Positions 673-60,869 of a stretch of 64,000 nt of DNA are shown piece after piece (position 1 is the first letter of the stretch; the number at the start of each line of letters is the position of its first letter). Under the pieces are notes generated by a model that made no database searches, was not told the origin of the DNA, and saw only the letters and a program-made list of their open reading frames with translations. The position numbers were made by a program, and so were the translations under genes. The DNA comes from a virus. The stretch is from positions 1 through 64,000 of IMG/VR virus record IMGVR_UViG_3300025921_000697; one strand, given 5' to 3'.

Positions 673-743
673 CATTATTTGTATTTCTTTTTTCGCAGAA
701 TATTTAAAGTAATTGGATAAAAGATGCAAAAAGAAGGAAACAG

Positions 744-790
744 TGACCCCGGCACGATTCGAACGTGCGACCCACAGCTTAGAAGGCTGT
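744..790 (-). other. Phage attachment site: 3' half of tRNA-Arg(TCT)
   Basis: On the minus strand this stretch reads as the 3' half of a tRNA: anticodon stem ACAGC/GCTGT with loop CTTCTAA (anticodon TCT, Arg), variable GGGTC, T-arm GCACG-TTCGAAT-CGTGC, acceptor CGGGGTC and discriminator A. No D-arm and no matching GACCCCG 5' acceptor strand are present upstream of the anticodon stem; that sequence is unrelated. A half tRNA between a host gene and phage genes is what remains at the distal end when an element integrates into a tRNA 3' end. The intact tRNA-Arg should sit at the other end of the element, beyond 64000. Confidence 0.85.
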
Positions 791-9102: not shown

Positions 9103-9275
9103 CAAATTACTTAAAGGCAGCAATTATCGGTTATTGGAGATGCGGAGCAAAGCCTCATGAAATATCGCAGATCACCGATTTAAGTATGCAGGAAATAGAG
9201 GAAATAATTTTTAATTATAAAACGAAAAATCAAACATGGATCAAAAATCAACCTTCAAACATTGGTGCATTGTAG
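9099..9275 (+). CDS. Small HTH-like protein
   Basis: A 58-residue ORF, MTNYLKAAIIGYWRCGAKPH onwards, containing HEISQITDLSMQEIEEIIFN, which reads like a helix-turn-helix of the kind that follows a leading WRxG helix. It overlaps the upstream gene by 4 bp and the downstream gene by 40 bp. Too short to assign further. Confidence 0.45.
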   Translation: MTNYLKAAIIGYWRCGAKPHEISQITDLSMQEIEEIIFNYKTKNQTWIKNQPSNIGAL

Positions 9276-14497: not shown

Positions 14498-16285
14498 ATG
14501 CAAATAGTAGAAACAGTAAAAGATTATGAAATTTCTTTCCCTTATGACGAACGAAAGGTGAAAGCGGTGAAAAACATTTCGGGTGCATGGTACCAAAAAA
14601 ATAATCACGTGTGGCATATTCCGCGTCACCGTCAGCGGGAAATTGAATCGCTGCGGAAAACCTTTAACGTAGTGGACCAGCGACAAAGAGATACCTATTT
14701 AATGCCGGAAATGATTGGCGAAATTGAGCCACTTCCGGATCTTGACATTCCGCTTGCTTTGTATAAGAAGCCGTACCCATATCAGGAAAAGGGAATTGCC
14801 TATTGCCGACGAAATAAAATGGTGATCATCGGTGATAAGCCTGGCCTTGGAAAAACGATTCAGGCTATAGGAACAATTTGCTCTTACGGAATGAATGAAA
14901 ACCGATATCTCAATGCCGGGCCAGGTCTTGTTATTTGTCCGTCATCATTAAAAATAAACTGGCAAACAGAATGGAAAGAAGTGGCCGGCCACCGGGCAAT
15001 GATTCTCTCTGATTCTATAAAAAGATCTTGGGTGCAATTTTATAAGGTTGGCATGTGTGACGTATTCATCACGAATTACGAAAGCCTCAAAAAGTTTTTT
15101 GTTCAACCTGGATGGAGTAAACCAAAAGAAGGTCGGTTCAGAATGGTTGATATTCCTTTCAATGAAAGCATAAACATTTTTAAATGGATCATCGTGGACG
15201 AGTCTCATAGATGCAAGGACATTTCTACACAGCAGGCAAAGTTTGTTATGGGAATTGCAAGAGGTAAAGAAATTGTTTTGGAACTAACCGGTACACCAGT
15301 GTTGAATAAAACAAAGGACCTTCTCTCACAGCTCTACGTGATCAATAAATTAAGAGATGTCGTTTCTCATTTGCCACAACCTGTTAACGATCGCGGTGTT
15401 CCTTGTGACAGCAGCGGTTATCAAAGATTTATTAACCGCTATTGCGGCGGAGGAAATGAATCTACGAACGTCAAGGAGCTAAACTATCGCTTGAATAAAT
15501 ATTGCTTCTTCAGCAGAGAGAAGAGTGAGGTTTTAAAAGATCTTCCTGAAAAGCTTCGCCAGGTTATCCGCTGTGATATTACCAACAGAGCGGAATATGA
15601 TATCGCCAAGGACAAATTCGCTGATTATTTGAGAAGCGTAAAAGGTTTCAGTAGCGCAGAAATTAAAAAATCCCTGAAAGGCGAGATCATGGTAAAAATG
15701 GGCATACTGAAGCAATTGTCTGCTCGCGGAAAAATGGAGGCGGCAAAGGAATACATTGATGAAATTGTTGACAATGGACAAAAGGTCGTTGTGTTTGTTC
15801 ACCATCATGTAATTGCTGATGGCTTGAAAGAAATGTACCCGGAGGCTGTGATGGTTACAGGCCGGCAAACTTCAGAGGAAAAAAACAGGGCGGTCCATGA
15901 TTTTCAAAAGTGTAAAAGATGCGGTGTGCGCTTGGAGGATCACAAGGATAAAGATCATGATCATGAACCGAGCGGCACGAATATAATTATTTGCAGTAGC
16001 TCAGGTGGTGAGGGATTGACGTTAACAGCAGCTTCAGAAACATTGATGATAGAGTTTCCTTGGACTTGGGGCAGGTGTGAGCAATATGAAGATAGGACAC
16101 ACAGGATCAGTCAGACGAATAATGTAAGGATTGGATATCTGTTAGGCCACAAAACAATCGATGAATATTGCTACTTCGATATCATTTTGAAAAAGAAAAA
16201 TTTAAGCGAAGAAGTTACCGGCGTGGAGGACAGCGCTGTAGAGGAAATGATTGATGATCTTTTAACGCTATTTAATCAGAAATAA
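14498..16285 (+). CDS. SNF2-family (HARP/SMARCAL1-like) DNA translocase
   Basis: A 595-residue superfamily-2 ATPase. The N-terminus (about 10-60: WYQKNNHVWHIPRHRQREIE) looks like the HARP module that binds forked DNA. Motif I is GDKPGLGKT (112-120), motif II is VDESH (near 234), motif III is LTGTP, and motifs V/VI are GEGLTLTAAS and EDRTHRISQ. It should rewind or remodel DNA at forks and likely serves replication. A Cys/His-rich insert (CKRCGVRLEDHKDKDHDH, about 470-488) lies between motifs IV and V and could bind metal. Confidence 0.88.
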   Translation: MQIVETVKDYEISFPYDERKVKAVKNISGAWYQKNNHVWHIPRHRQREIESLRKTFNVVDQRQRDTYLMPEMIGEIEPLPDLDIPLALYKKPYPYQEKGIAYCRRNKMVIIGDKPGLGKTIQAIGTICSYGMNENRYLNAGPGLVICPSSLKINWQTEWKEVAGHRAMILSDSIKRSWVQFYKVGMCDVFITNYESLKKFFVQPGWSKPKEGRFRMVDIPFNESINIFKWIIVDESHRCKDISTQQAKFVMGIARGKEIVLELTGTPVLNKTKDLLSQLYVINKLRDVVSHLPQPVNDRGVPCDSSGYQRFINRYCGGGNESTNVKELNYRLNKYCFFSREKSEVLKDLPEKLRQVIRCDITNRAEYDIAKDKFADYLRSVKGFSSAEIKKSLKGEIMVKMGILKQLSARGKMEAAKEYIDEIVDNGQKVVVFVHHHVIADGLKEMYPEAVMVTGRQTSEEKNRAVHDFQKCKRCGVRLEDHKDKDHDHEPSGTNIIICSSSGGEGLTLTAASETLMIEFPWTWGRCEQYEDRTHRISQTNNVRIGYLLGHKTIDEYCYFDIILKKKNLSEEVTGVEDSAVEEMIDDLLTLFNQK

Positions 16286-29829: not shown

Positions 29830-30390
29830 ATGATCTATTCAGTCAAAAGCGGTGGTAGTGTAGCGGTAGCACACGGCCCTTCCAGGGTTGAAGAGTGGTT
29901 CGAACCCACAACACCGCTCAAGATTTTACCTAATCTAAAACCTTCAATAGCCCTTGCATTTCGTAAAAGACATATCAAGGGCTTTATTGTTCCCGGAGGG
30001 TGCAATATTTATGTAGGTCTGCAACAAAAAGAACTCTTTGGTGTACTTGGTTTTAGTAATCCGGAATATGGAAATTTTGATCTTTTCATGAAGGCAGATA
30101 CAACACCTTCAGAGCTTGAATATTCCACAGATCTTTTACTTTATGTTATGCGGACAAAAGAAGTAAAATCAATACTCGAAAAAAAGTTCTGCAGAGAAAT
30201 AAAAACTGCTTATTCCCTTGCATTCTCCAGACACGACCAAATTAACCGCTATCGCAAACATGGCAAGCAAGTAAAAAAGCTGGCAATTGAAGGAGGCGGT
30301 TATAATCTCGGTTACATTTTTGAACTCGGAACCGTTCCATCGTTGAAAGCAGCAAAAGCGCTCTGGATGCAAAACCATAAAATCAAATGA
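29830..30390 (+). CDS. Unknown protein whose N-terminus overlaps the tRNA
   Basis: An ORF of 186 codons. The folded part from about residue 40 (SIALAFRKRHIKGFIVPGGC, LFGVLGFSNPEYGNFDLFMK, AYSLAFSRHDQINRYRKHGK, EGGGYNLGYIFELGTVPSLK) looks like a genuine alpha/beta protein, somewhat like GNAT or Mom-type modification enzymes. The only normal start in frame is ATG 29830, which makes the tRNA part of the reading frame; later in-frame ATGs would remove the core. The true start may be a rare codon near 29950. It overlaps the ParB-like gene by 4 bp. Confidence 0.5.
   Translation: MIYSVKSGGSVAVAHGPSRVEEWFEPTTPLKILPNLKPSIALAFRKRHIKGFIVPGGCNIYVGLQQKELFGVLGFSNPEYGNFDLFMKADTTPSELEYSTDLLLYVMRTKEVKSILEKKFCREIKTAYSLAFSRHDQINRYRKHGKQVKKLAIEGGGYNLGYIFELGTVPSLKAAKALWMQNHKIK
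29849..29918 (+). tRNA. tRNA-Gly(TCC)
   Basis: Cloverleaf: acceptor GCGGTGG/.CACCGC, D-arm GTGT-AGCGGTA-GCAC, anticodon stem CGGCC/GGTTG with loop CTTCCAG (anticodon TCC, reading GGA), T-arm GTGG-TTCGAAC-CCAC and discriminator T. The innermost acceptor pair is G-A, the outer T-stem pair is A-A, and the variable loop is short, so the molecule is somewhat divergent. No CCA is encoded. It lies within the start of the ORF 29830-30390. Confidence 0.7.
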
Positions 30391-31055: not shown

Positions 31056-31574
31056 ATGGCTGGAAGAAAAACTTTATACGATCCGCTTAATTTTCCGCTG
31101 CTTGCTGAAGGATATGCACGTAATGGATTGAATGACATACAGATAGCAAAAAATCTTGGAATTAAGAAAGCAAGTTTTTATGAATATATGAAGCAATTTC
31201 CAGAATTTTCAGACGCTATTAAAAGAGGAAGAAAGCCTGTTGATATTGAAGTCGAGAATGCTTTGCTGAAAAGAGCGCTTGGATATGATTACGAAGAGAA
31301 AATAACGGAAGTTGAGCTGGATGCTCAAGGACAGCCAAGACCTTCAAAAATAAAGACTGTCAAAAAACATGTACCTGGTGAGGTTGGTGCACAGGCATTT
31401 TGGTTGAAGAACCGGAAGAAATCAGAATGGAAGGACCGGCATTCGCATGAAGTTGGCGGAGAAGATGGCAAACCTATTCCGATTAAAAGTGATCTTCAGA
31501 TTGACCTGTCAGGCCTGGATGAGAAATCCTTGGAAACAATATTGAAAGTATTCGATAATTCCAGCAATGAATGA
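31056..31574 (+). CDS. Terminase small subunit
   Basis: A 172-residue DNA-recognition protein for packaging. The N-terminus is an HTH typical of small terminases (PLLAEGYARNGLNDIQIAKN, LGIKKASFYEYMKQFPEFSD, AIKRGRK), then VENALLKRALGYDYEEKITE and QAFWLKNRKKSEWKDRH. It starts 3 bp after the ParB-like gene and overlaps the large subunit by 8 bp. Confidence 0.85.
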   Translation: MAGRKTLYDPLNFPLLAEGYARNGLNDIQIAKNLGIKKASFYEYMKQFPEFSDAIKRGRKPVDIEVENALLKRALGYDYEEKITEVELDAQGQPRPSKIKTVKKHVPGEVGAQAFWLKNRKKSEWKDRHSHEVGGEDGKPIPIKSDLQIDLSGLDEKSLETILKVFDNSSNE

Positions 31575-33057
31575 GCAGGCAACGACACTACTACAATCCC
31601 ACAGACAGGCAATTTATAATGCAGCCAAAGAGGAATTAATTAAACGACGCCGCAAAAGGTGCAAGGACCTGAAGAACTTCGTAAAAGAATTTTGGGATAT
31701 CATCGTTCCGAATGAACTGAAATGGAACTGGCACATGGATGTGCTTTGCGATGAGATTCAAGAATCTGATAGCAGGGTTTTCAAACGATTACCGAAGCTT
31801 TATGATTCCATCTTTAATGTGCCGCCAGGCGCAACAAAAACAATCATCCTTTCAATAATGTCCACGGCCTGGGAGTTTTCCATGATGCCGGAGATAAGAG
31901 TATTTGTAGGATCGTATTCAGATAGTGCAGTAATAGCCATTGCAGATAATATCAGGCTTTTGATGAAGTCTGAAAAATACCTGGAAACATTTCCGAACGT
32001 ACAGATCAGAAAGGACTTTGACACCAAACACGAATTCAAAACAGTTTCGAACGGCCATTTTTACGCCTTTACGGTTGGAGGTACGCTGACCTCGAAACAC
32101 GCGGATATACTAAAGATTGATGATCCGCTAAATCCAAAGCAGGCTGTATCACAGGCGCAGATTGAAACCGCAAACGCATTTTTTGATCTTACCTTACCAA
32201 CCAGGAAGGTAGATAAAGAGGTTACTCCTACTTATTTGATCATGCAGCGTTTGACAACAAATGATCCTACTGGCCATCTTTTAGAAAAAGACAAAACAAT
32301 AAACCACGTCTGTTTACCAGGAGAATTATCTAATGACGTAAAGCCCGAAAAATATAAGAAATTTTATACTGATGGATTGCTTGATCAACACCGGTTAAAA
32401 GCAAGTTCATTGAAAGCGCTTCATATTTCCCTTGGTAGTGCTGGTTATGCCGGACAGATACAACAGAGGCCAGTCCAGGAAGGTGGGTTGATCTGGAAAA
32501 AATGGTTTATTGAAATTGATGATGCGCTATTCCCTCCGTTAAAATCTTTGTCATTAGTGGGGACTGACTGGGATTTGGCATATACCGATGATGATGCAAA
32601 TGCCGCGAGCGCTTACATTACAGCCGGCCGGTTGAACAATAAAATGTTCATTGATGATGTAGGGGCTGTTTATCTTGAATTTCCGGAGTTAATCAAGTTC
32701 ATGAAAACAAGAAAGTCTCCGCACTATATTGAAGCCAAAGCTTCCGGAAAATCTGCAAAGCAAACTCTTGTAAAAAATGGCATACCAGCAATTGAGGTAG
32801 AAGTAAGCGGTGGCGACAAAGTTGCCCGGGCACGCTTTTCAACGCCCTATCCAGAAGCCGGCATGTGTTACATCCGCAAAAGTGTCGCTGATTTCCTGTA
32901 TAACGATAGCCGCCAGGGAATATTAAATTTCCCAAAAGGATCCCATAAGGATATTGCTGATGCACTCGCACAAGCTATACAACGAATTTTCCGAGGAGGC
33001 ATAAAGGTTGGCGGACCTGGTAATAGTATGCTGGATGATCTGGATTTCAACTCATAA
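31567..33057 (+). CDS. Terminase large subunit
   Basis: A 496-residue packaging motor and nuclease. The ATPase half has a Walker A-like motif PPGATKT (86-92) after the Q-like region NWHMDVLCDEI, Walker B ILKIDDPL (Asp185, Asp186) and the coupling motif LTLPTRK. The RNase H-like nuclease half begins with LVGTDWDLAYTDDDANAAS (near residue 330) and has further acids near YIEAKASGKSAKQ and KGSHKDIADALAQA (His-Lys-Asp). Length and order fit a full-length TerL. Confidence 0.95.
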   Translation: MNEQATTLLQSHRQAIYNAAKEELIKRRRKRCKDLKNFVKEFWDIIVPNELKWNWHMDVLCDEIQESDSRVFKRLPKLYDSIFNVPPGATKTIILSIMSTAWEFSMMPEIRVFVGSYSDSAVIAIADNIRLLMKSEKYLETFPNVQIRKDFDTKHEFKTVSNGHFYAFTVGGTLTSKHADILKIDDPLNPKQAVSQAQIETANAFFDLTLPTRKVDKEVTPTYLIMQRLTTNDPTGHLLEKDKTINHVCLPGELSNDVKPEKYKKFYTDGLLDQHRLKASSLKALHISLGSAGYAGQIQQRPVQEGGLIWKKWFIEIDDALFPPLKSLSLVGTDWDLAYTDDDANAASAYITAGRLNNKMFIDDVGAVYLEFPELIKFMKTRKSPHYIEAKASGKSAKQTLVKNGIPAIEVEVSGGDKVARARFSTPYPEAGMCYIRKSVADFLYNDSRQGILNFPKGSHKDIADALAQAIQRIFRGGIKVGGPGNSMLDDLDFNS

Positions 33058-34990: not shown

Positions 34991-35755
34991 ATGAAAAAAC
35001 AAGCTATAATAATGAATACGGTTTTGATTTTGGCGGTAGTTTCAGTAGTAATATCTGCTTATTGCATTTTCTTCGGAATATTTAATCAGATAGTGGTAAA
35101 GTGTCTTGCAGTTGTAGGGAGTATTCTTTTGGCATTTATTGCCGTTTTTTTTTATAGCAATTCAAAATACAATAAGTTACCGATTGCAATTATTCTTTGT
35201 CTTTTCTCCTTTTCATCATTTGCGCAAAATACCGATTCTGCTCTTGAGGCTGGAACTAAAAAGGCGACACAAGAAATGGTTCGATTAAAGGAACAAGGCA
35301 TACGTGAAATAAACAAATGGACGCTTCCTCCGCACATGTTGAAAGCGACAGTTAATGAATTTTCAATTAAACCGTTGATAGGCAAGAAAGATATTTTGAT
35401 CTATGCGATGCAGTTTGTCTCCGGTGCAGCAGACGGTATGAATCAGGCTCTTGTTTATCATCATGCCCTCGCTGGCCATTCTTTCTGGGATTACAATACC
35501 AGTTGGAAAAGAAAATATGTTGATTACGATAAAGGAGATACGCGGGCGGCTTTTCCCGGGGCTAAAACATGGCTTGTAGGAATAACGGATGGAAATCATT
35601 TAACAAGAATGATAAACAGATCTTTCTCCTTAGGGAGTGTGATGATTGCTATGAATGAGAGTAACAGCTGGGTAGAAATTTTCAAAAAAATTATAATCTG
35701 CTCACTGATCAACCGGGCTGGATTTGTCCTAATGTATGATCACATTTTAAAATAA
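34991..35755 (+). CDS. Membrane protein with a second, internal signal-like segment
   Basis: A 254-residue protein with two transmembrane segments (about 6-28, IMNTVLILAVVSVVISAYCI; 33-55, VVKCLAVVGSILLAFIAVFF) followed by a third hydrophobic stretch LPIAIILCLFSFSSFAQ (62-78) that looks exactly like a signal peptide with a SFAQ cleavage site. The remainder is probably periplasmic or outer-membrane: FVSGAADGMNQALVYHHALA, GHSFWDYNTSWKRKYVDYDK. The build resembles that of the protein at 62644. Function unknown. Confidence 0.5.
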   Translation: MKKQAIIMNTVLILAVVSVVISAYCIFFGIFNQIVVKCLAVVGSILLAFIAVFFYSNSKYNKLPIAIILCLFSFSSFAQNTDSALEAGTKKATQEMVRLKEQGIREINKWTLPPHMLKATVNEFSIKPLIGKKDILIYAMQFVSGAADGMNQALVYHHALAGHSFWDYNTSWKRKYVDYDKGDTRAAFPGAKTWLVGITDGNHLTRMINRSFSLGSVMIAMNESNSWVEIFKKIIICSLINRAGFVLMYDHILK

Positions 35756-35792
35756 AAAACATAGAAAATTAAATTTTACTAAAGTGAATGCC

Positions 35793-36077
35793 ATGATACA
35801 CATTTTTAAAACTAAAAACGGACAGTTCTGCGTGGTGACCAAAGCAAATAACGGCGAAATACTCAATGTTTCTGAAACCTTCACACAGAAACAAAATGCC
35901 TGGAAAAATATTGGAGCCGCTGCCGACAGTTTTGGTTCGAAAAAAGTTTTAGTTCAGGATGATTGTTTGAAGATAAAGTCAAAGGTATATGTGTGTCGTA
36001 TAGGAGATAATTTGAAAATGAATATAGCTGAGTCATGCATAGTGAATGCTGAGCCAAGGCATGTAAGCAAAAAATAG
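35793..36077 (+). CDS. DUF1508/YegP-like small protein
   Basis: A 94-residue protein from ATG 35793 (a GTG at 35784 is the alternative). IHIFKTKNGQFCVVTKANNG followed by EILNVSETFTQKQNAWKNIG has the YegP layout, a duplicated beta-hairpin-helix unit of unknown function, here in a single copy. Confidence is moderate. It precedes a 150-bp stretch in which I see nothing, and then the tRNA-Met. Confidence 0.45.
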   Translation: MIHIFKTKNGQFCVVTKANNGEILNVSETFTQKQNAWKNIGAAADSFGSKKVLVQDDCLKIKSKVYVCRIGDNLKMNIAESCIVNAEPRHVSKK

Positions 36078-36227
36078 TTCTTTACTCATCCATAAGCATC
36101 TGCTCGAATAAGCAGGCCGATATAAGCTGGTCACGTAGTTTATAATTGACTTGATACAACCAGAAAACTTTTTAGGGTTGCTGCGAACTAAGGCAGAAGG
36201 CTTTTGGGAAAATTTAAAATGAAAAAT

Positions 36228-36299
36228 CGCGTCGTAGAGCAGCGGTAGCTCGCTGGGCTCATAACCCGGAGGCCGCAGGTTCGAGTCCTGCCGACGCAA
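36228..36299 (+). tRNA. Initiator-type tRNA-Met(CAT)
   Basis: Cloverleaf: acceptor CGCGTCG/CGACGCA, D-arm GAGC-AGCGGTA-GCTC, anticodon stem CTGGG/CCCGG with loop CTCATAA (anticodon CAT), variable AGGCC, T-arm GCAGG-TTCGAGT-CCTGC, A73. It has the three marks of bacterial initiator tRNA: a C1xA72 mismatch, three consecutive G-C pairs in the anticodon stem and the A11-T24 pair in the D stem. No CCA is encoded. This is a phage-borne initiator tRNA, not an elongator. Confidence 0.8.
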
Positions 36300-36317
36300 C
36301 ATAAAACCATAGAGAAA

Positions 36318-36407
36318 GGTTGATGCTGAAATTAAGATAAGAGATTAGGTAAACGGATTAGCTAACCAGGAACCGAAATTGATTATCCTAACAAGTAGGC
36401 ATCAACC
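36318..36407 (+). ncRNA. Structured RNA candidate beside the tRNA
   Basis: A perfect 9-bp closing stem GGTTGATGC (36318-36326) and GCATCAACC (36399-36407) encloses about 72 nt that include TTAGG/CCTAA and a TTAGCTAA palindrome. No ORF of note. It is not a tRNA: there is no T-arm and no anticodon arm. It lies 19 bp after the initiator tRNA and may be released with it. Confidence 0.4.
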
Positions 36408-36431
36408 AAAGAAATTTTAAAATTGAATTAT

Positions 36432-36836
36432 ATGTTTGAAGAACAATTATCCGAAGAACAATTACAGAAAAAAATTGATGCTCTTAAAGCAGAATTAGAG
36501 CCATTAGAAAAACTGCAAAGGGAAAACTATATAAAAAAGGAAGATGAAGTTCAGCTAAAACTAAAGAGATGTAAAAGCAAACAAGACAAATTTGAATTGG
36601 AAGATCTTGTTTTTGCTGCTTTTTCTCGCTGTAATTGCGGAGCAGGTTTAGCATATCCCAAACATATAGGTATTCATGGGTACTGGATGTGCTCAGATAT
36701 TTTATTAGGAAGGGCAATTCCACATGGACAAGAAGGATCAAAAGAACATAGTGGTGAATTTCCATTTGCATTCTATGAAATAAAAAGTGATACTCAGCCT
36801 TCAGCACAGGGAAATACAACTCGTCCAAAAGAATAA
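36432..36836 (+). CDS. Coiled-coil protein with CxC patch
   Basis: About 134 residues from ATG 36432 (TTG 36423 is possible). Residues 1-55 are a charged coiled coil (EEQLQKKIDALKAELEPLEK); the middle has RCNCGAGLAYPKHIGIHGYW, which resembles a partial zinc site, and the C-terminus is polar. No family recognised. Confidence 0.5.
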   Translation: MFEEQLSEEQLQKKIDALKAELEPLEKLQRENYIKKEDEVQLKLKRCKSKQDKFELEDLVFAAFSRCNCGAGLAYPKHIGIHGYWMCSDILLGRAIPHGQEGSKEHSGEFPFAFYEIKSDTQPSAQGNTTRPKE

Positions 36837-36841
36837 AACCA

Positions 36842-37480
36842 ATGATCAAAGTAAATCTATATACAAAAAATGGAGAGCTGGTAATAACAGTAATGACACC
36901 TCCGTTTAACCCGATGCCTGATTGCATAGCGTGGGGCAGTCGCTTTTTCTTCAAAAACCCGGACTTTAAAAAGAAAGACGAATCCGGTTATTACGAAGGT
37001 CTTATCGTTGCTGCAATCAATGTTGTTACCCGGGAAACATCAATAAAAAGAGAGACAGACAAGAAAGAGTATGGAAATGATGATCTTCTGTTTGGCCTCC
37101 CAAATGATCTTGACGAAGCGGTAGAAACATTTCTTGAATTCTATAGCAAGTCAGAAGATTTTCAGCTGATTGATAATTGCACGGAGGACAAATTTCTCTG
37201 TGTCACTCATCATGCATCCGGACAGTTTATAAGAAACAGCTGGTATTTGTGGTGGCATGAAGATCATGGATCCGATTCATGGCCCAAGTCAAAACCGCAG
37301 CTGGTGCAGTGGTTTAATAACCTTGGCATTTATCACGCCGATGATATGAGTTCGATCATTATCAGATCCGCATACCGGCGTCATCACAAACAAGCAATAT
37401 TAATTGAAAAACAGGTAAGCCATTACAGAAAGTTTTGGAAAGAACAAGGCTTTGAAGATGGCATTTATAAACCCAGATAA
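36842..37480 (+). CDS. Hypothetical protein
   Basis: A 212-residue alpha/beta protein (TPPFNPMPDCIAWGSRFFFK, NSWYLWWHEDHGSDSWPKSK, YHADDMSSIIIRSAYRRHHK). It starts 5 bp after its neighbour. No family recognised. Confidence 0.5.
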   Translation: MIKVNLYTKNGELVITVMTPPFNPMPDCIAWGSRFFFKNPDFKKKDESGYYEGLIVAAINVVTRETSIKRETDKKEYGNDDLLFGLPNDLDEAVETFLEFYSKSEDFQLIDNCTEDKFLCVTHHASGQFIRNSWYLWWHEDHGSDSWPKSKPQLVQWFNNLGIYHADDMSSIIIRSAYRRHHKQAILIEKQVSHYRKFWKEQGFEDGIYKPR

Positions 37481-37483
37481 ATT

Positions 37484-37945
37484 ATGAAAATTCAAATAAC
37501 ACAACAGCAGCAACAAAGATTCCCTGATCTGCTCACAAAGGAACTGGAAAAAGTAACCATGTTCTGGGACAATGAATTGAGATTATGGCATCCGGTGGCC
37601 CTGGAAGCTTTACTCTTCGCCTCTGCTATTAGTTTGCAAATACCACAGGAAACCTTCATCCATTTGTTCGATACCGAAAAAAACGGCATTAATATGAATG
37701 TGGTGATGAGACTTTGCAACAACCTGGAAGCGCGAACAGCGATGGAGATGAATTACACGGCTAAAGACTGGGGTCATTTTCTCGTTACGAATGCAAACGT
37801 CGGCTATCGTTGGAATGCATTACAGCAGCCAATCCGGGAGAAGATCTTTAAACAGTTTGAGGAAGAGAATAATCAGGCCAGTATTCGGGCAAAGATCATG
37901 GGAAAAGGTCCAGGCGGTATGAAATTAGTAAAAGGAGAAGCATGA
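37484..37945 (+). CDS. Hypothetical protein
   Basis: A 153-residue helical protein (QQRFPDLLTKELEKVTMFWD, LEARTAMEMNYTAKDWGHFL). It overlaps the next gene by 4 bp. Position in the late region points to a virion or assembly protein, but no family is evident. Confidence 0.5.
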   Translation: MKIQITQQQQQRFPDLLTKELEKVTMFWDNELRLWHPVALEALLFASAISLQIPQETFIHLFDTEKNGINMNVVMRLCNNLEARTAMEMNYTAKDWGHFLVTNANVGYRWNALQQPIREKIFKQFEEENNQASIRAKIMGKGPGGMKLVKGEA

Positions 37946-38352
37946 TGATACAGACAATTTTCATAACAGCGTTGATCATTCTTTTTTTCCACGTGTGTAC
38001 GTGGCCGGGGATGGTTTTCTCTTTCGTATCGGAAGCTTTAAAAAACGTCCCAGCTTATTTAAAAAAACCTCTCTTTGATTGTCCGATTTGTATGTGTCCT
38101 TGGTGGGGGCCGACAGTCGTTGCATGCGGAATAGTGGGCAATGTTTGGCACGTTGACAATGTTTGGCAACTCGCGATCATTGTTGCATCAGCTGCCGGCA
38201 TTAATACGGTTTTGATCTATGTGATCAACCAAGGCAAGCAGCTGGCAAAAACTTTAAACGAATCTGAATGCAATTGTACCAGCAAGGAAAAGATAAGAGA
38301 CGAAAGATTAAAACGATTGGAAAGATTTGTTGATCCTTTAAAGTCAAGATAA
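37942..38352 (+). CDS. Membrane protein with CPICMCPWWG motif
   Basis: A 136-residue protein with transmembrane segments at about 3-18 (TIFITALIILFFHVCTW), 55-75 (GPTVVACGIVGNVWHV) and 78-98 (LAIIVASAAGINTVLIYVI). CPICMCPWWG (about 50-59) and CNC later could bind metal or form disulfides; the CP-C.CPWW pattern recalls DUF1360-type membrane proteins. Function unknown. One-base overlap with the next gene. Confidence 0.5.
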   Translation: MMIQTIFITALIILFFHVCTWPGMVFSFVSEALKNVPAYLKKPLFDCPICMCPWWGPTVVACGIVGNVWHVDNVWQLAIIVASAAGINTVLIYVINQGKQLAKTLNESECNCTSKEKIRDERLKRLERFVDPLKSR

Positions 38353-38546
38353 TGGAAAAAACAGTCGAAAAAACGGCAAGTCAAATGATTATGGAATTGC
38401 AGGACAAGAACGCTAAGCTCAGATTGGGATTAGGAAAGCTATTGAAGATTTGCGAAAATAATAAGATGCACATGAAAAGTGAAGTGTGGGACCAGCAGAT
38501 TGGATTTGCAAAGCAAATGTTCATAGAAACAGATCCAAATAAGTAG
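38352..38546 (+). CDS. Small helical protein
   Basis: A 64-residue, wholly helical protein (KTASQMIMELQDKNAKLRLG, WDQQIGFAKQMFIETDPNK). Overlaps the membrane gene by one base. No family recognised. Confidence 0.5.
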   Translation: MEKTVEKTASQMIMELQDKNAKLRLGLGKLLKICENNKMHMKSEVWDQQIGFAKQMFIETDPNK

Positions 38547-45719: not shown

Positions 45720-48700
45720 ATGTCAGAGCCAATTATAAACCGCATTTATGACCTGAAAATCGCAGGTTATGATGATTCGATGGCCAAAGTGGAAGCGCTG
45801 ACAAACGCTTTCACGAAAATGGATGAGGTTAAGCGGAAATTAAATACGCAGCTTCAGGAAAAAGTCAATGCCGGTGACACGGATGCTGTCACACAACTCA
45901 CCAAAAAGATTGCCGATCTTGAAAACCAGATGGCAAACCTGAAAACTCAAAGAGATTCGGCTGCCAAGGAAGAGGCATTACTTGCTAAAGCAGAAAAGGA
46001 CCGTGCAGATGCCTTACTTAAAACTCAAAAAGCAGAGGAATCAGTTGCCAAAACAGAACAAATAAGAATAAACTCGACCATTGCACAGGAAAAGGAATTG
46101 GACCGGCAAATCGCTTTGGAAGAAAAGCAGGCTCAACAGCTGGCTAAAGAAAAAATATCCATCGACGCACTCGAAGGAAGTTACAACCGTCTGAAAGAAC
46201 AGCGCCTGCAACTGGAATCTTTCACTGCTAACAGCAATCCAGGTTCCACCTTCAATTTAAACGGAAGTCTGATCGGATATGATGAGGCGATTGCCAAAAT
46301 CAAGGAGATCAAGGGACAGGAGCAGCAATACCTGGATCAGCTAAAAATTGAAAAAGAAAGTCAGGCATCGATCATCAAAGGTCTTCAGGAAAAAATTACC
46401 CAGATAAAAATTGAGCGGCTGGAACTTGAAAAGGTTGTCAGCACATCACAAGCTGGTGAGTCTGTAACTTTTAAGGGTCAAACGATTAATTATACCGAAG
46501 CTATTGCTCAAATCAATGAACTCAAAGCAGCTGAGACACAATTAACGCAAGATCTTTCCTCACAAGGAGTTCAGACAAAAGAGCTTTCAAATAATTATTA
46601 CGGATTACTGGCAGCTCAGAGAGAAGCGATTAATTTATACCGCAATACTGATTTTAATTCTCCCATCTTCCAGGAAGTAAAATTGCAGGCCCAAGAAGCG
46701 ACAGACAAGGTACAGGCATTTAACCGGTCACTTTCTCCGGATGGTACCTTGGTTGGTGAATATAAAACAGGTATTATCAATGCCTTTAAAAACCTTGGCC
46801 TGACTGATGTTTTAAAAAATCAGCGAGCACAATTGCAGGCTGAGTTTGATCAATTAAAAAATCAAAATGAATCACTGGTTTCTGAATATTGGAAAGCAGG
46901 ATCAGCCGGCACGACAGCATTCAGGGATGTGGAAGCACAACTCAGAAGAAATGTTGAACAACAGGAACAAATCAGATCTTCTTTAAATAACCTGGATAAC
47001 TCTTTACGAAATACCGGGTCCGTGGGTGCGCAAATTTCTGAAGGTATCGCAAGCGGCTTCAAAAATGTCAAATCGCAGATCGGCCAGGTACTTGTTGCTT
47101 ACGTTGGCTTCCAGGCCATTTTTCAGGGAGCGCTTAATCTTTTGCATACGAATACAGAGTTAAGCGACAGTATCGCTCAATTGCAGATTTATATTCATGG
47201 TACTACAGAGGAAGCAAATAATTTGGTTGATGTCTTAAAAAAGATACCTACACGAACATCCTTGCCAAATCTTGTGGATATAGCTACAGCAGTTGCGCAA
47301 AAAGGAGTTGCAAAAGAAGAGATCGGTGAAGTAACACAGGCGTTTGACCAGCTCTTTACGGCACTGGGCAAAGATGCCGGTGATCCGCACCAGGGAGTGC
47401 TTACAATTGCGAAATTGATCAGTATTTTCCACGATGATCATGAAGTAACCGCTCAGAGAGTCAGGGAATTGGGAAATGCAATGTTTACCCTGCAAAGTTC
47501 AGGCCCGGTGTCAGGTGAATTTTTGCAATCATATGCTGAAAGAGTCGGCGCAGTAAGAAGTATAACCGGTGCGACTATCCCTCAAATTTTGGGTATGGGA
47601 GCCGCTTATCAGCAATTAGGCCAACGCGAAGAAGTTGCCGGCAGCGCCACAAGCATTTTACTCACCAAAATGATTTCAAATGTAGAGAAGTTTGCGTCAG
47701 TATCTGGCATCAGCGTGGAAAAACTTCGTGCAGTTATAAAAGCAAATCCGTTTGAAGGACTTTTGGAAGTTGCTGAAAAACTGAAAGAAAAAGGCAATGA
47801 TGGTGTAGAGGCAATGGTTAAACTGGTTGGTGATTTGGGTGTGAATAATGTGAGAGCAAAGGGCGCATTCTCTGAGTTGATCAATAATGCAGATTTGTTC
47901 AGGGCAAAAATGGAACTTGCAGGTAGTGCGCTTAGTTCCACATCAAGCTTGACAACCGCTTTCGAAGAAAAACAAAAAACGTTTGGCGCCACTATTGCCG
48001 AAATAGGAAAAGAACTCCAGATCGCTTTCAGTAATGAAAACTTTTTAAAAGTTTTGAATGGCGTATCGCTGGTATTACTAACAATCATCCGGGTGATTAC
48101 CGCTATTCCTTTTTCAGTGATAGTCGGAGGAATTACGGCCATGTCTGCCGCCTGGTTATTTTATAAAGGAAATCTGACCTTAACCCGTCTGGAACAAATG
48201 GCAAACAATGAAGCCACGCTTCTTGGGTATGTTCGTTTAAATATTCTAAAATCAGGTTTATTCGGTGCGGCCGCGGCAGAACAGGCGAGAGCAGCATCCA
48301 TCCAGAGAACGAATGCAGCGGTGGTTTTAAAAATAGCCTCCATCAATTCAGAAATAGCCGCTGAAAATGGCGCTATTGCTGCCCTGGAAGCAAGGGTGGC
48401 AGCTGATGCGGAACAATCAGTTGTTTTAGAAGGAGAAATTACTGCAAGACGTGCTCATGTACTGGCATTAGAAAGTGAGGTTGCTGCTCTCGACAGTGCA
48501 ACGCTTGCCACCGATGGTTTAAATGTTGCGACAAAAGCTTCTCCGCTTGGAATAATTCTCGGTATAATTGCTTTGGTTGTACCGGCAATTAGTGCCTTTG
48601 GAAAATCCACCAACAATGCAACTAAAGAAATTTCAGAACAAAATAAACAGCTTCGCCTGAATGAGCAAATTCAGGGAGAGGTTGCAAAAAGTGTGTCTGA

Positions 48701-51410
48701 TAGTACAGCATCACAAATTTCCCATGTTACCCAGTTAATAGCCGTTTTACAAGATCACACGAGTAAAACTTACCTCTTAAAAAAAGCATACGATGCATTG
48801 ATCAGTATTGCCCCAGAATTTGCAGGTGTATATGATGGTGAAAAAGTAAACCTGGAAAAACTCAATGAACTGTATCCGATCTACATTGCCAATCTGAAAG
48901 CTGTTTCAGAGGCAAAGGCACTCGCATCCATCCGGGATAAATATGCTCAGGAACAGGCTGATGCTGAAGTCGCTGCATTCCAAGCGAAGCTAAAAGCAGA
49001 TCAGGAGCAAAAAGAGAATGCTGAGATAGAAAAAAATAATAAAAAACTGGTGGCTACTCCGGCCTTCGGAAGCCCAGGAATCGGAGCATCAACCGCTGCC
49101 CTTCCTCTTGGTAAAACTTCAGATGTAGCACAGAAAAATTTTGAACAAAAACAAGCAGAGGTAAAAAAAGCAGCTGAACAAACCGCAGCCCTCGATGCTT
49201 ATCTGGCCGGCGATTTGAAGAGCAGGCAAAAAAGAATAGCAGATCTTACTGCTGAGCTATCAAAACTGAAGAAAGGCACTGATGAATACAATAAAATATA
49301 CACTGAGCTTGAAACACAGAAAAAAAGTTTGGAAGTTGTTTCCGGAATTCCCGATGCCGCTCCGCAGGCACCTGGAATCGGCGAAAGAACTATTGCTGAA
49401 ATAAAAGCAGACTTAAAAAAAGCGAACTCAGATTTTGAACATGCCATAAACGGTTCACCTGAGAAGGAGGAATTGAAAAAGAAGATAGCAGCATTGAAGC
49501 AGGAGTTAATAGATGCCGGTGGAGCGAAGCCGGCTCCCTACAAAGGCGCTCGTCTTTCCGGAGTTCAAAAAGATTTGTTTAAGGATATTGATGCGCAGAC
49601 CGATCAGGAGATCACTGAAGAAAAATTAAAATTCAAGCAACTGCAGGAAGATGAAGAGACTTATTTGACAAATGTGCTCAAGATCAATACCGATGCCGCT
49701 AATAAGAAAATTGCTGCACTCGATGGTAGTAATGCTGAGGAAAGAAAACAAATAGCGCAACAAAAACTCTTCATCATTGAGCAGGAAGAAGAAACGAATA
49801 AAAAGTTATTCGACCTGCAGAAAAAACAATTAGATGCAAATTTCGCCAGCATTATAAATCAGGCTAAACTCGCGTTAGAAAAAACGAATGAAGATCCTAC
49901 AAAAACGGATCAGGAGAAAAGGAAGGCAAAGGCCGATTTCCTGGCCGCCGAATATCTTCTTGAAGCAACATATGATTACCAGGTTGATCAGCTCGAAACA
50001 AAATACAATCAGCGGTCAGTTGAGAATGCACAAAAAAGAAAAGATGCATTGCTACAGATTTCTCATGATATCAGTAAGACAGACCTTGAAATCACGGTTG
50101 GCACTTTGCAGGCTATTGATGATTCCACAGGAAAAGCTGTAGCTGAAATAAAGTTGAAGTATGATAAGCTGATTCAGGATATTTTGAAAAGCAATCAAAG
50201 TCTTCAGAATAAGACGTCAGCAATAAAAATTCTTACTACCACTGAAGACGTGGAAACCGGCGGGGTGCAATTGAAAGGAGATGTAGCAAAAGTTTTGGTA
50301 GCAAAGCAACTTTTGGATTTTGGACTGATTACAAAAAAACAATTTGAGGAAATATATGCCGCTGCAAATGAAGGCCAGAAAAAACTGAATAATGCTATCC
50401 AGGAAGGGAAAACCAGCATTACCTCTATGAGCGCCGTTTTGGAGAAATCCCTTGGGAAATTATTTGGCTTTGGAAAAGAGAGTGGCCAGGCGCAACTTTT
50501 GGCTCAGACCATTACCGATGGGTTCGGAACTGCGAAAAATGCAATGGATTCTTATTTTGAGGCGGAACAGAATAATATCGAGCATAGCAATCAAATCACA
50601 CAGCAAAGGTTAGATATTGAATTGCAACAGGCGAAATCCAAAGCACAAAGCCAGGCTGAGCAGGATTCACTCGATCGGCAATTCCAGGCCAAAAAGGAGG
50701 CAGCGGATAAGGCAGCATTTGAGAAAAATAAAAAGCTTCAGATCGAACAGGCAAAAATTAACCTGGCAATTCAATTATCAAATTTGGCCGTGATTGCTTT
50801 TGCTCCAAACCCGTTGAACATTGCTACTTTGGGAGTCGCGGGCACAATCATGTACGCAATTCAGGCGGCGCTTGCCTTCGCCAATTATGCCCTCAATGTA
50901 AGTAAGATCAATTCGGCTCAATTTGCGGCAGCTGGTGGTGGTAAAGTTCCAAAACTTCCAAACGGAAAAGTTACAAATCCATCAAATATTCCTACACAGC
51001 CAAACGGCGACAACGTTTTGGCAACGGTAAAAACCGGTGAAGTGCTTCTGAATGAAGAGCAACAGCGGAAAGCTGGTGGTGACGAATTCTTTAGAAGGCT
51101 TGGTGTACCTGGATTTGCAGATGGCGGAAGGATTCAGGCTTTTGCGTCCGGAGGTTATGCCGGCATAGGAAGTGAAGAGTTGGGAGGATCATTAAAGGCT
51201 CCTATTAATCCACGATCTTTTTTGTCAGGCAATACATCAAATCTTTTTGAAGAAAACAGCCGTCAGATATCTGCATTAGCAGGACTGATTGAAGAAACAG
51301 GCCGGCAAGTTCATCAAAGAATTGACAAATTACAGGTTGTACTGGACCCGGCAAAGGTTGACCGGGCAAACAACAAAACTAAAAAAGCTACTGCAATAGG
51401 AAAATTATGA
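45720..51410 (+). CDS. Tail tape measure protein
   Basis: A 1896-residue protein. Coiled coils fill the first 320 residues (NAFTKMDEVKRKLNTQLQEK; LKAAETQLTQDLSSQGVQTK) and again about 1300-1530. A TMP-like region (VGFQAIFQGALNLLHTNTEL; MGAAYQQLGQREEVAGSATS) covers 450-700. Hydrophobic segments lie near 785-815 (VSLVLLTIIRVITAIPFSVI), 940-960 (LGIILGIIALVVPAISAF) and 1685-1720 (NIATLGVAGTIMYAIQAALA), then a Gly-rich tail with GFADGGRIQAFASGGYAGIG. Tape length suggests a long siphovirus tail (about 280 nm at 0.15 nm per residue, a rule-of-thumb value). Confidence 0.9.
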   Translation: MSEPIINRIYDLKIAGYDDSMAKVEALTNAFTKMDEVKRKLNTQLQEKVNAGDTDAVTQLTKKIADLENQMANLKTQRDSAAKEEALLAKAEKDRADALLKTQKAEESVAKTEQIRINSTIAQEKELDRQIALEEKQAQQLAKEKISIDALEGSYNRLKEQRLQLESFTANSNPGSTFNLNGSLIGYDEAIAKIKEIKGQEQQYLDQLKIEKESQASIIKGLQEKITQIKIERLELEKVVSTSQAGESVTFKGQTINYTEAIAQINELKAAETQLTQDLSSQGVQTKELSNNYYGLLAAQREAINLYRNTDFNSPIFQEVKLQAQEATDKVQAFNRSLSPDGTLVGEYKTGIINAFKNLGLTDVLKNQRAQLQAEFDQLKNQNESLVSEYWKAGSAGTTAFRDVEAQLRRNVEQQEQIRSSLNNLDNSLRNTGSVGAQISEGIASGFKNVKSQIGQVLVAYVGFQAIFQGALNLLHTNTELSDSIAQLQIYIHGTTEEANNLVDVLKKIPTRTSLPNLVDIATAVAQKGVAKEEIGEVTQAFDQLFTALGKDAGDPHQGVLTIAKLISIFHDDHEVTAQRVRELGNAMFTLQSSGPVSGEFLQSYAERVGAVRSITGATIPQILGMGAAYQQLGQREEVAGSATSILLTKMISNVEKFASVSGISVEKLRAVIKANPFEGLLEVAEKLKEKGNDGVEAMVKLVGDLGVNNVRAKGAFSELINNADLFRAKMELAGSALSSTSSLTTAFEEKQKTFGATIAEIGKELQIAFSNENFLKVLNGVSLVLLTIIRVITAIPFSVIVGGITAMSAAWLFYKGNLTLTRLEQMANNEATLLGYVRLNILKSGLFGAAAAEQARAASIQRTNAAVVLKIASINSEIAAENGAIAALEARVAADAEQSVVLEGEITARRAHVLALESEVAALDSATLATDGLNVATKASPLGIILGIIALVVPAISAFGKSTNNATKEISEQNKQLRLNEQIQGEVAKSVSDSTASQISHVTQLIAVLQDHTSKTYLLKKAYDALISIAPEFAGVYDGEKVNLEKLNELYPIYIANLKAVSEAKALASIRDKYAQEQADAEVAAFQAKLKADQEQKENAEIEKNNKKLVATPAFGSPGIGASTAALPLGKTSDVAQKNFEQKQAEVKKAAEQTAALDAYLAGDLKSRQKRIADLTAELSKLKKGTDEYNKIYTELETQKKSLEVVSGIPDAAPQAPGIGERTIAEIKADLKKANSDFEHAINGSPEKEELKKKIAALKQELIDAGGAKPAPYKGARLSGVQKDLFKDIDAQTDQEITEEKLKFKQLQEDEETYLTNVLKINTDAANKKIAALDGSNAEERKQIAQQKLFIIEQEEETNKKLFDLQKKQLDANFASIINQAKLALEKTNEDPTKTDQEKRKAKADFLAAEYLLEATYDYQVDQLETKYNQRSVENAQKRKDALLQISHDISKTDLEITVGTLQAIDDSTGKAVAEIKLKYDKLIQDILKSNQSLQNKTSAIKILTTTEDVETGGVQLKGDVAKVLVAKQLLDFGLITKKQFEEIYAAANEGQKKLNNAIQEGKTSITSMSAVLEKSLGKLFGFGKESGQAQLLAQTITDGFGTAKNAMDSYFEAEQNNIEHSNQITQQRLDIELQQAKSKAQSQAEQDSLDRQFQAKKEAADKAAFEKNKKLQIEQAKINLAIQLSNLAVIAFAPNPLNIATLGVAGTIMYAIQAALAFANYALNVSKINSAQFAAAGGGKVPKLPNGKVTNPSNIPTQPNGDNVLATVKTGEVLLNEEQQRKAGGDEFFRRLGVPGFADGGRIQAFASGGYAGIGSEELGGSLKAPINPRSFLSGNTSNLFEENSRQISALAGLIEETGRQVHQRIDKLQVVLDPAKVDRANNKTKKATAIGKL

Positions 51411-55287: not shown

Positions 55288-56472
55288 ATGAAGGCAACGC
55301 CGCTAATTGTTTTTAATTATTCAATAAAAAATCAGGCTGGTAGTAAGGCTGAAATTTTCATCGACGGCGATATCGTCGATGCTCCTACACAGGAGATATT
55401 GAAGGATTGGTTCGGCGACGATACTTCAGTTTCCTACAAATCATTCCGGGACCTGGTTAACGCTTCAGACGCACAAATTTTTGATGTTTATATCAACAGC
55501 GGCGGCGGACAGATGATTGAAGCCATGGCCATTCATGATTTGCTGGTGGAGATGCAGGAGAAGAAAGGCAAAACTGTAAATACCATAGGCCGCGGTATTG
55601 TGGCCAGTGCTGCTACTTACATTTTGATGGCAGGTAAAAAACCGGCAATGTCTTCCAACAGCTGGCTAATGATTCATAACGTTTCCGGTGGTATTTATGG
55701 TAGCGTAAATGAAGTTGAAAACTATGCAGCAACGATGCGCCGGTTCAACGATTCAGCCACAGGATTTTACCAAAAAGTTACCGGGTTAAGCAAAACGGTA
55801 ATTGCCAACATGATGGATGCCGAAACATGGATGACTGCTGAAGAAGCAAAAACAAAAGGCTTTATCAAAGAAACTACCGGTGAAGCTTCATTCTCACAAA
55901 TAATTAAACCTGAGCAATGGCCATTCAGCAATTCGGCTGTGCTCAACTCATATAATTCATTCACAAAAAAAAATGATCCTGTTATGGACACAACAAAAAT
56001 TACAGAAGCGATAAATAACGGCTTCAATTCTCTTTTAGAAAAGCTGGGTATTAGCAACAAAAAAGATGAAGCTGAAACCAAAAAAGCTTTCGAAGATTTT
56101 AGCAACAGCATTACCAATGCCATCGCTGCAAATACAGGCTCTTCCCTGGATGAAGAAGCAGTGAAAAAAATTGTCAACACTGCTTTGACCGATGCGTTGA
56201 AAACAATTCCCCAAAATTTTACTCAAGCGATAGCTGATTCACAAAAAGATTTTGTGAAGAAAGAGGACATAAAGGACCTGGTAAAAAAAGACGACGTAAA
56301 GGATGTGTTGAACAAAACTGACTTCAACGCTGAAATGAAAACCTTGAGAGAAGATCTGGTGCAAAAAATTTCAGGAGGTAAAACCGAAAACAACGCTGGT
56401 AATAAAAATAAATCAGGCGTAAACAGTAAATGGGCGTACGAAAATCTTTGGACAGAACCAGCTGCAAATTAA
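55288..56472 (+). CDS. ClpP-type prohead protease with scaffold-like tail
   Basis: A 394-residue protein. The first 210 residues are a ClpP fold: IFIDGDIVDA, DVYINSGGGQMIEAMAIHDL, then GRGIVASAATYILMAGKKPA with catalytic Ser107 and MIHNVSGG with His130. The rest (about 230-394) is Ala/Lys/Asp-rich and helical (AINNGFNSLLEKLGISNKKD; KEDIKDLVKKDDVKDVLNKT), like a scaffold fused to the protease. It matures the head by cutting scaffold and capsid tails. It follows palindrome copy 3 by 9 bp, starting the head operon. Confidence 0.9.
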   Translation: MKATPLIVFNYSIKNQAGSKAEIFIDGDIVDAPTQEILKDWFGDDTSVSYKSFRDLVNASDAQIFDVYINSGGGQMIEAMAIHDLLVEMQEKKGKTVNTIGRGIVASAATYILMAGKKPAMSSNSWLMIHNVSGGIYGSVNEVENYAATMRRFNDSATGFYQKVTGLSKTVIANMMDAETWMTAEEAKTKGFIKETTGEASFSQIIKPEQWPFSNSAVLNSYNSFTKKNDPVMDTTKITEAINNGFNSLLEKLGISNKKDEAETKKAFEDFSNSITNAIAANTGSSLDEEAVKKIVNTALTDALKTIPQNFTQAIADSQKDFVKKEDIKDLVKKDDVKDVLNKTDFNAEMKTLREDLVQKISGGKTENNAGNKNKSGVNSKWAYENLWTEPAAN

Positions 56473-59408: not shown

Positions 59409-60869
59409 ATGCATAATGAAAAAGCTTTTAAGTCTAAGAGGCGTCTTACTATTGCTAATAGTATAAAATTAAACCCCTCCAATCCGTTACCGATAACGTA
59501 TAATGGCAATTCATTCTTAACGGTTTTTGGGAAAAAATATATCCCAATTTTAAACCGGCGGAATAATCTCCCTACCCTGCTTCTCGAAGCCCGGTTAACT
59601 TCTCCAACTCAATCTGCATGCATTTCAAGTATCGCAAGCTCAGTGGTAGGTAACGGCCTTTCTGTCCTGGACAAAAACAATAATTCCATAGCACTTAAAA
59701 ATGTTGATCCGGATTTTGTCGATTGGATGAAATCGGTCAATAACGATCTTGAAAGCTTCGATGAAGTTTTGTTGAATATCATGGATGGGGAGCGTGAACA
59801 AGGCAACCAGTTCATCAGATTGATCAAAGGCAATTTGGGGAAAACCAAGTTTTTGAAAATAAAACTGGAACCGATGCAATTTTGCCGGTTTGCGGAATTG
59901 GAAGAGGGCCAAACCGAACCGACATCTGTTCTTATTTCCAGAGGATTTGTAAAAGGCGCCGGTACTAAAGGTGCTGGAGCTCTTAATATGGATGACGTTG
60001 AAGAGATTCCGCTTTACAGCCCTAACTCACTTGATCAAAACAAGGCCTGGAAAAAAGACAGCAACAACAACTATCATTCAATGCTTCATTTTAAAAACCA
60101 GGTACAGGGCGTTGAATTCTATGGTTTGCCGGCATCTGTTTCCGGATTGCGTTACCAGGTGCTGGAAGGAAAGACTGCTCAATCTAATATAGACAATTTG
60201 GAAAACAACATGGTGATGGGAGGAATGTTGGTTCTGAAGAGTGCCATGACGGAAGACGAGGCTAAAGAACAGGCAGACCGCATATTGGAATCTCATGTGG
60301 GCGATGGTAAGCGCGGAAGAATTGCAGTCGTGAGCAGTGAGTCAGGAATCGATGATGTGAAGTTTGAGAAATATGAAACGAAATCTGAAGGCAGTTACAT
60401 CGAGCTGGATGATAGGATCGTTCAAAAAATTATCGCGAGCAACAACTGGCACAAAGCGCTTTTAGGAATGCAGGAAGGAAACAGCGGCACTAGAAGTGGA
60501 AACGGAAGTGGTTACATCCGTTCGATCTGGGATACAAAAGAAGCATCACTGCTAAATCCACTCAGAAGAAAGCTAACTGATAAAGTTGTGATGCAGATCA
60601 TAAAAATATATGCCGATCATTTCGGGAAAAAAGATCTCTTGAATTATAATTTTTGGTTCAAAACTGCAATGCCTTTCTCATTCCTGGGTGATGTTAAACC
60701 CGAACAGTTTATGAAGGTAAACGAAGCCAGAGACCTGGCCGGTCTTGATAAAGATCCTGAGAAAGAAAATGTGTACCTGGCAGAAATGGCCGCTAAAACT
60801 AATTCAAATAACGCAGATATAAATCCAAACGAAAACGAAAATGTTCCGAATCAATCAGCTTCCGCGTAA
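59409..60869 (+). CDS. Portal protein
   Basis: A 486-residue protein that forms the dodecameric channel for DNA. Portal landmarks: SPTQSACISSIASSVVGNGL near the N-terminus, FDEVLLNIMDGEREQGNQFI, MVMGGMLVLKSAMTEDEAKE and the clip/stem region ASNNWHKALLGMQEGNSGTR. Length fits the small siphophage portal class. The first ATG used is 59409; the end overlaps the connector gene by 29 bp. Confidence 0.85.
   Translation: MHNEKAFKSKRRLTIANSIKLNPSNPLPITYNGNSFLTVFGKKYIPILNRRNNLPTLLLEARLTSPTQSACISSIASSVVGNGLSVLDKNNNSIALKNVDPDFVDWMKSVNNDLESFDEVLLNIMDGEREQGNQFIRLIKGNLGKTKFLKIKLEPMQFCRFAELEEGQTEPTSVLISRGFVKGAGTKGAGALNMDDVEEIPLYSPNSLDQNKAWKKDSNNNYHSMLHFKNQVQGVEFYGLPASVSGLRYQVLEGKTAQSNIDNLENNMVMGGMLVLKSAMTEDEAKEQADRILESHVGDGKRGRIAVVSSESGIDDVKFEKYETKSEGSYIELDDRIVQKIIASNNWHKALLGMQEGNSGTRSGNGSGYIRSIWDTKEASLLNPLRRKLTDKVVMQIIKIYADHFGKKDLLNYNFWFKTAMPFSFLGDVKPEQFMKVNEARDLAGLDKDPEKENVYLAEMAAKTNSNNADINPNENENVPNQSASA

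Follow-up and report, generated by a model that had tools for sequence, protein, structure and literature searches.

Single initiator-type tRNA genes have been reported in phiLM21-like Sinorhizobium prophages, which carry one internal tRNA-fMet or tRNA-Met(CAU) gene and are inserted at a different host tRNA gene (Lys, Ser, Leu or Pro); the report offers no explanation for the tRNA (PMC12429752). The prophage described here is likewise temperate, with an internal initiator tRNA and insertion at another tRNA gene, but the Sinorhizobium phages and their hosts are unrelated to it. Phage initiator tRNAs are therefore already known, and the gene reported here is one more. Phages with tRNA-dependent lysogeny (PMC10865867) are also temperate and have a tyrosine integrase and a tRNA of their own, although in our prophage the tRNA isotype differs from that of the attachment-site tRNA, and the latter is reconstituted. 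In a third group, phage tRNA genes make up for a tRNA depleted by nucleases of the host (PMC10264068; PMC11555353). Phage tRNAs can rescue from tRNA-depleting defences even by supply alone, and E. coli tRNA-Tyr expressed from the phage promoter also rescued (PMC11555353), while changes in the anticodon loop have been proposed as a means of evasion (PMC10264068). The known defence-evading tRNAs are elongators (Tyr, Lys and others), whereas the copy described here is an initiator without a loop mutation.

An initiator tRNA reads start codons only and decodes no elongation codon, so the usual account of phage tRNAs as matching codon use is inapplicable and codon compensation does not explain the gene. 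Phages in which an initiator is the only or the best tRNA thereby isolate the question of what phages gain from having tRNAs. A search of the literature for phrases such as 'phage-encoded initiator tRNA' returned no paper, and the class-level pattern presented below appears to be undescribed in the literature that could be searched.

Identification of an initiator tRNA gene

The stretch analysed (hereafter the window) is the first 64,000 nucleotides of IMG/VR record IMGVR_UViG_3300025921_000697. The tRNA gene in it had been put down as phage-encoded, which holds for its place inside the phage gene region, but the 76,287-base source record is an integrated prophage flanked by host DNA on both sides (Table 1). 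ARAGORN calls a tRNA-Met(CAT) at 36228–36300, and the gene matches Rfam RF00005 over its full length (65.2 bits, E=6.7e-12). C1xA72 is unpaired in the acceptor stem and is followed by G2:C71, C3:G70 and G4:C69; the D stem (GAGC/GCTC) gives A11:U24; and the anticodon stem has the pairs C27:G43, U28.G42, G29:C41, G30:C40 and G31:C39 below a loop, CUCAUAA, that is unaltered relative to the host. Every determinant listed in a review of bacterial initiators (PMC7949028) is thus present by sequence and Rfam alignment, namely a weak 1:72 position, three G:C pairs in the anticodon stem, the formylation determinants G2:C71, C3:G70 and A11:U24, and CAU within CUCAUAA. These features support identification as an initiator, and they bear out the initial annotation, which had proposed one from the C1xA72 mismatch, GGG:CCC stem, A11:U24 and CAT anticodon. 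A codon-compensating tRNA would decode elongation codons used more by the phage than by its host, and we rejected this assignment since the determinants imply a non-elongator (PMC7949028). We infer that the tRNA is expressed, processed and formylated.

The gene has no encoded CCA and reads ACATAA at its 3′ end. This is normal for the family, as CCA is encoded in just six of 31 Chitinophagaceae initiators sampled, and such hosts must therefore add CCA routinely.

Table 1. Features of the prophage and its flanks. Positions are those of the window unless the record is named.
Feature	Position	Strand	Basis
Uracil-DNA glycosylase gene of the host, to the left of the prophage	1–729	-	PF03167
Left attachment repeat, 50 bp, matching the 3′ portion of tRNA-Arg(TCT)	741–790		Exact repeat
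Terminase small subunit	31056–31574	+	PHROG 309, 1e-49
Terminase large subunit	31567–33057	+	PHROG 38, 5e-62
Accessory insert with tRNA and small ORFs	34991–38546	+	Genes on both sides conserved in relatives L121 and L136, insert missing there
Initiator tRNA-fMet(CAU), nucleotides 1–73	36228–36299	+	ARAGORN, Rfam, sequence
Acceptor stem 5′ strand, CGCGTCG	36228–36234	+	Sequence; determinants per PMC7949028
Anticodon arm, CTGGG-CTCATAA-CCCGG, 3GC pairs	36253–36269	+	Sequence, ARAGORN
CAT anticodon	36260–36262	+	Sequence, ARAGORN
Acceptor stem 3′ strand, CGACGCA, and discriminator A73	36292–36299	+	Sequence
Intergenic structured stretch 3′ of the tRNA, 10-bp closing stem	36317–36410	+	Fold z=-5.1
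Tail length tape measure protein, late region	45720–51410	+	PHROG 25337, 1.2e-31
Head maturation protease, late region	55288–56472	+	PHROG 94, 5.5e-56
Portal protein, late region	59409–60869	+	PHROG 12, 7e-8
Tyrosine integrase	Record 70347–71567		PF00589
Right attachment repeat, partner of 741–790	Record 71660–71709, beyond the window		Exact repeat, 50 bp

The gene lies ~3 kb past the large terminase gene and ahead of the tail and head genes, with one strand used throughout. A scan upstream of it with a Bacteroidota-type promoter consensus gives one weak site (36150–36180), but the window as a whole has 204 matches against 208 expected, which leaves the site uninformative. The structured stretch just downstream is possibly in the same transcript; none of 200 shuffled sequences folds as stably, there is no match to it in Rfam, and a search with its 5′ arm found no other viral contig. 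A search for relatives of the neighbouring ORF at 36423–36836 found none.

Initiator tRNAs in other phages

We searched IMG/VR with a strict 31-base pattern for the initiator core in which the acceptor stem is unconstrained, and at least 119 contigs match. The initiator core also matches 167 GenBank phage records, 121 of them from mycobacteriophages, and in many GenBank phages the core match falls on an annotated tRNA-Met gene. Among the matches listed, none of 87 distinct phage copies has G:C at 1:72 and 14 have any pair there, with weak A:U-type pairs present and strong pairs absent, while G2:C71 is kept in 86 of the 87. Other tRNAs in the same stretches are paired at 1:72 in 225 of 229 cases (p=7e-52 against the initiators).

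The remark in the initial annotation that phage tRNA sets seldom include initiators is correct as a proportion, with three initiators among ~96 phage tRNAs in a T-arm-based sample; in absolute numbers they are common, as the count above shows, and the wording misleads in that most of those found are the sole tRNA of their phage and so lie outside any set. Exactly one tRNA match is present in 35 of 48 initiator records searched whole (among the matches listed), these having been picked mainly for stretches that showed a single tRNA. Judged by stretch, 75 of 119 initiator loci have a single tRNA against 21 of 117 comparison loci found with a T-arm pattern, among the matches listed; the two sets were sampled differently, and the figures are an indication and not a rate. 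The carriers are diverse, since at E 0.001 no counterpart of this prophage's terminase turns up in 46 of the 48 comparison records. That initiators are widespread and often the only tRNA suggests that phages need to keep translation starting during infection.

Among the neighbours of lone initiators (67 non-redundant cases) the most frequent families are terminase, major head protein, head maturation protease, portal and tail sheath, and beside other lone tRNAs integrase is the leading family; these tallies are counts of families in which distinct proteins are not separated, and we claim no rate from them. The initiator is next to terminase or head genes in loci L319, L324, L334, L338 and L095, and in the isolate Janthinobacterium phage Donnerlittchen it directly follows the terminase gene, with no other tRNA annotated in the stretch covered. 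Members of one clade have an identical tRNA although their flanks are ~74–80% identical.

Several other tRNA-like features were noted in passing. Four members of the clade with the identical lone initiator (L002, L009, L012 and L057, in records G002, G007, G010 and G039) have a sub-threshold tRNA-like match of 22–27 bits directly upstream of it. The sequenced isolate Bordetella phage vB_BbrS_PHB09 has an unannotated tRNA-Met (MN103401.1, ~15175–15249) with T1xT72 and GGG:CCC, together with an elongator-like C11:G24 D stem and the loop TTCATAC. At 10076–10151 of L131 there is a phage tRNA-Met(CAT) with T1:A72 and an A11-type D stem, without the three G:C anticodon-stem pairs, which is possibly a relaxed initiator.

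Anticodon loop changes and possible function

A second scan, in which loop positions 32, 33, 37 and 38 were left free, shows that the anticodon loop is altered in 32 of 119 phage initiator loci (27%), with 24 of the 32 changed at A38. Examples of altered loops are TTCATAT, CTCATTC and CCCATAA (IMG/VR loci L316–L347, and L359), and 1:72 is again without G:C in all 32 except one misregistered case. By comparison, all 74 chromosomal copies from Bacteroidota (11 + 63) have the canonical loop (Fisher p=4e-8), a contrast to be read with the viral loci taken irrespective of host and without dereplication (24 distinct altered sequences), and with the host control drawn from one phylum. The sole altered copy in 247 Bacteroidota genomes (L359, genome G500) is in a prophage, just after the major head protein gene, and its host has a canonical-loop copy as well.

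VapC of enteric bacteria is reported to cleave initiator tRNA between A38 and C39 (PMC4105405). The pattern in the class runs counter to a published statement that, where VapC targets tRNA-fMet, phages generally avoid encoding it (PMC10264068), and its components (a lone gene, a late-region position, retention of the 1:72 rule, and VapC-adjacent loop changes confined to phage and prophage copies) make it testable why phages have tRNAs. The loop in the window, CTCATAA, is unchanged near the cut site, so the argument from loop evasion covers the class and not this copy.

We consider it probable that the window encodes a functional initiator tRNA, whose gene is accessory and lies among the late genes of a temperate prophage of the Chitinophagaceae. 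Its likeliest benefit would be to maintain the supply of fMet-tRNA in late infection, as the host's own pool is depleted or becomes limiting. On induction the tRNA would be transcribed with the late packaging, head and tail genes; RNase P of the host and 3′ processing would trim the transcript, and a host enzyme would add CCA. MetRS would then charge the tRNA, formylation would follow, and IF2 would use it for protein starts, which would sustain the fMet-tRNA pool while a tRNA-targeting defence depletes that of the host, or where the pool is limiting. That the tRNA might stand in for the host initiator or answer attack by defence nucleases, as was first suggested, is plausible. With moderate confidence we prefer supply in late infection, and we infer that tRNA-targeting defence is the main selective reason. 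A broader reading, which we offer tentatively, is that the lone initiator is a dedicated late-region translation-rescue gene in many kinds of phages, kept as hosts attack initiator tRNA; the A38 changes, so far seen in phage and prophage copies only, would then represent escape from VapC-like enzymes, and canonical copies would act by supply.

The strongest competitor is a pure dosage effect unrelated to defence, in which an extra initiator lifts initiation capacity for the late protein burst. The canonical loop of the window copy agrees with this, as do its late-region position and the terminase, head and tail neighbours in many other lone-initiator phages, but dosage does not account for the loop changes next to the VapC cut in about a quarter of the comparable phage copies, changes that chromosomal Bacteroidota copies lack, and we regard it as rather unlikely.

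Divergence from host initiators

Initiators of Chitinophagaceae hosts share the same determinants, have an identical D arm and anticodon loop, and mostly lack an encoded CCA. The gene is nearly identical across five related host genomes, whereas the window copy differs at 12 of 72 positions (5, 6, 27, 28, 43, 47, 50, 59, 60, 64, 67 and 68 in tRNA numbering), chiefly in re-paired positions of the acceptor, anticodon and T stems. Eight of the 12 changes make up four compensated swaps that are still paired (5:68, 6:67, 27:43 and 50:64); another converts 28:42 to U.G, three are in loops, and all 12 leave the initiator determinants untouched. Because the swaps are compensated and all determinants kept, selection for initiator function is indicated, and the divergence points to probable drift under initiator constraint, unlike decay.

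This bears on the possibility that the tRNA is a neutral passenger, drifting since a chance capture of the gene from a host. Such an origin would suit its location, as the 34991–38546 segment is an accessory insert: relatives L121 and L136 keep the flanking gene order, and the 3.6 kb around the tRNA is absent or replaced in them. No initiator was found in the terminase neighbourhoods of relatives with 53–56% TerL identity, and a TerL-based search found no close relative of the prophage with the tRNA. A passenger would not, though, be expected to accumulate compensated pairs without losing a determinant, to follow a 1:72 rule common to the 87 distinct phage copies among the matches listed, or to remain identical in a clade whose flanks have diverged, and we think this explanation quite improbable. 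Recent capture from a host was rejected, as the sequence is present in no sampled Chitinophagaceae genome (best 83%). The closest viral tRNA by anticodon arm, L195, was considered as a relative and set aside; it belongs to an unrelated phage.

Prophage boundaries, attachment site and host

The prophage is integrated at tRNA-Arg(TCT). An intact copy of that gene adjoins the tyrosine integrase gene at one junction and its 3′ part is repeated exactly at the other, and the host flank beyond the right repeat contains an OmpA-family gene and htpG. The site is empty in G368, a related genome in which htpG, ompA, tRNA-Arg(TCT) and the glycosylase gene are neighbours without an intervening prophage. 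Since the attachment site is tRNA-Arg(TCT), the initiator gene is not the attachment site.

The initiator could alternatively be an attachment-site remnant or a misread provirus edge, that is, a tRNA of the host included in the viral contig by error, and the record does hold host DNA, with a tRNA-Arg of the host at the right end. However, the gene is mid-prophage (bounds 741 to 71709) amid phage genes and its sequence is that of no sampled host; the mapped boundaries and the empty site in G368 rule this reading out, and its probability is minimal. The prospect that the phage initiator makes good the loss of a host initiator gene disrupted on integration, as in tRNA-dependent lysogeny (PMC10865867), is practically nil despite the integrase and the phage-borne tRNA, as the mapped attachment site excludes it for the initiator: attB is a tRNA-Arg(TCT) gene and not of the same isotype, the repeat is 50 bp with tRNA-Arg intact at one junction where that system has a short core and does not rebuild the host tRNA, and the initiator is ~35 kb from both prophage ends.

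HtpG is 87–88% identical to its counterparts in the best-matching genomes of the family to which Taibaiella lutea belongs, and a Taibaiella prophage terminase is 53% identical to the one here; these identities place the host in this family, the Chitinophagaceae. We also note a weak tRNA-Gly(TCC) match in the window at 29849–29919 (35.9 bits, with mismatches at 7:66 and 49:65), which overlaps the start of an ORF at 29830–30390 whose GNAT-like domain begins downstream of the overlap. In a similar position in the Taibaiella lutea prophage L136, just before the small terminase gene, is a tRNA-like gene (9120–9192) with an 8-base anticodon loop (aacc) that is possibly a frameshifting Gly tRNA.
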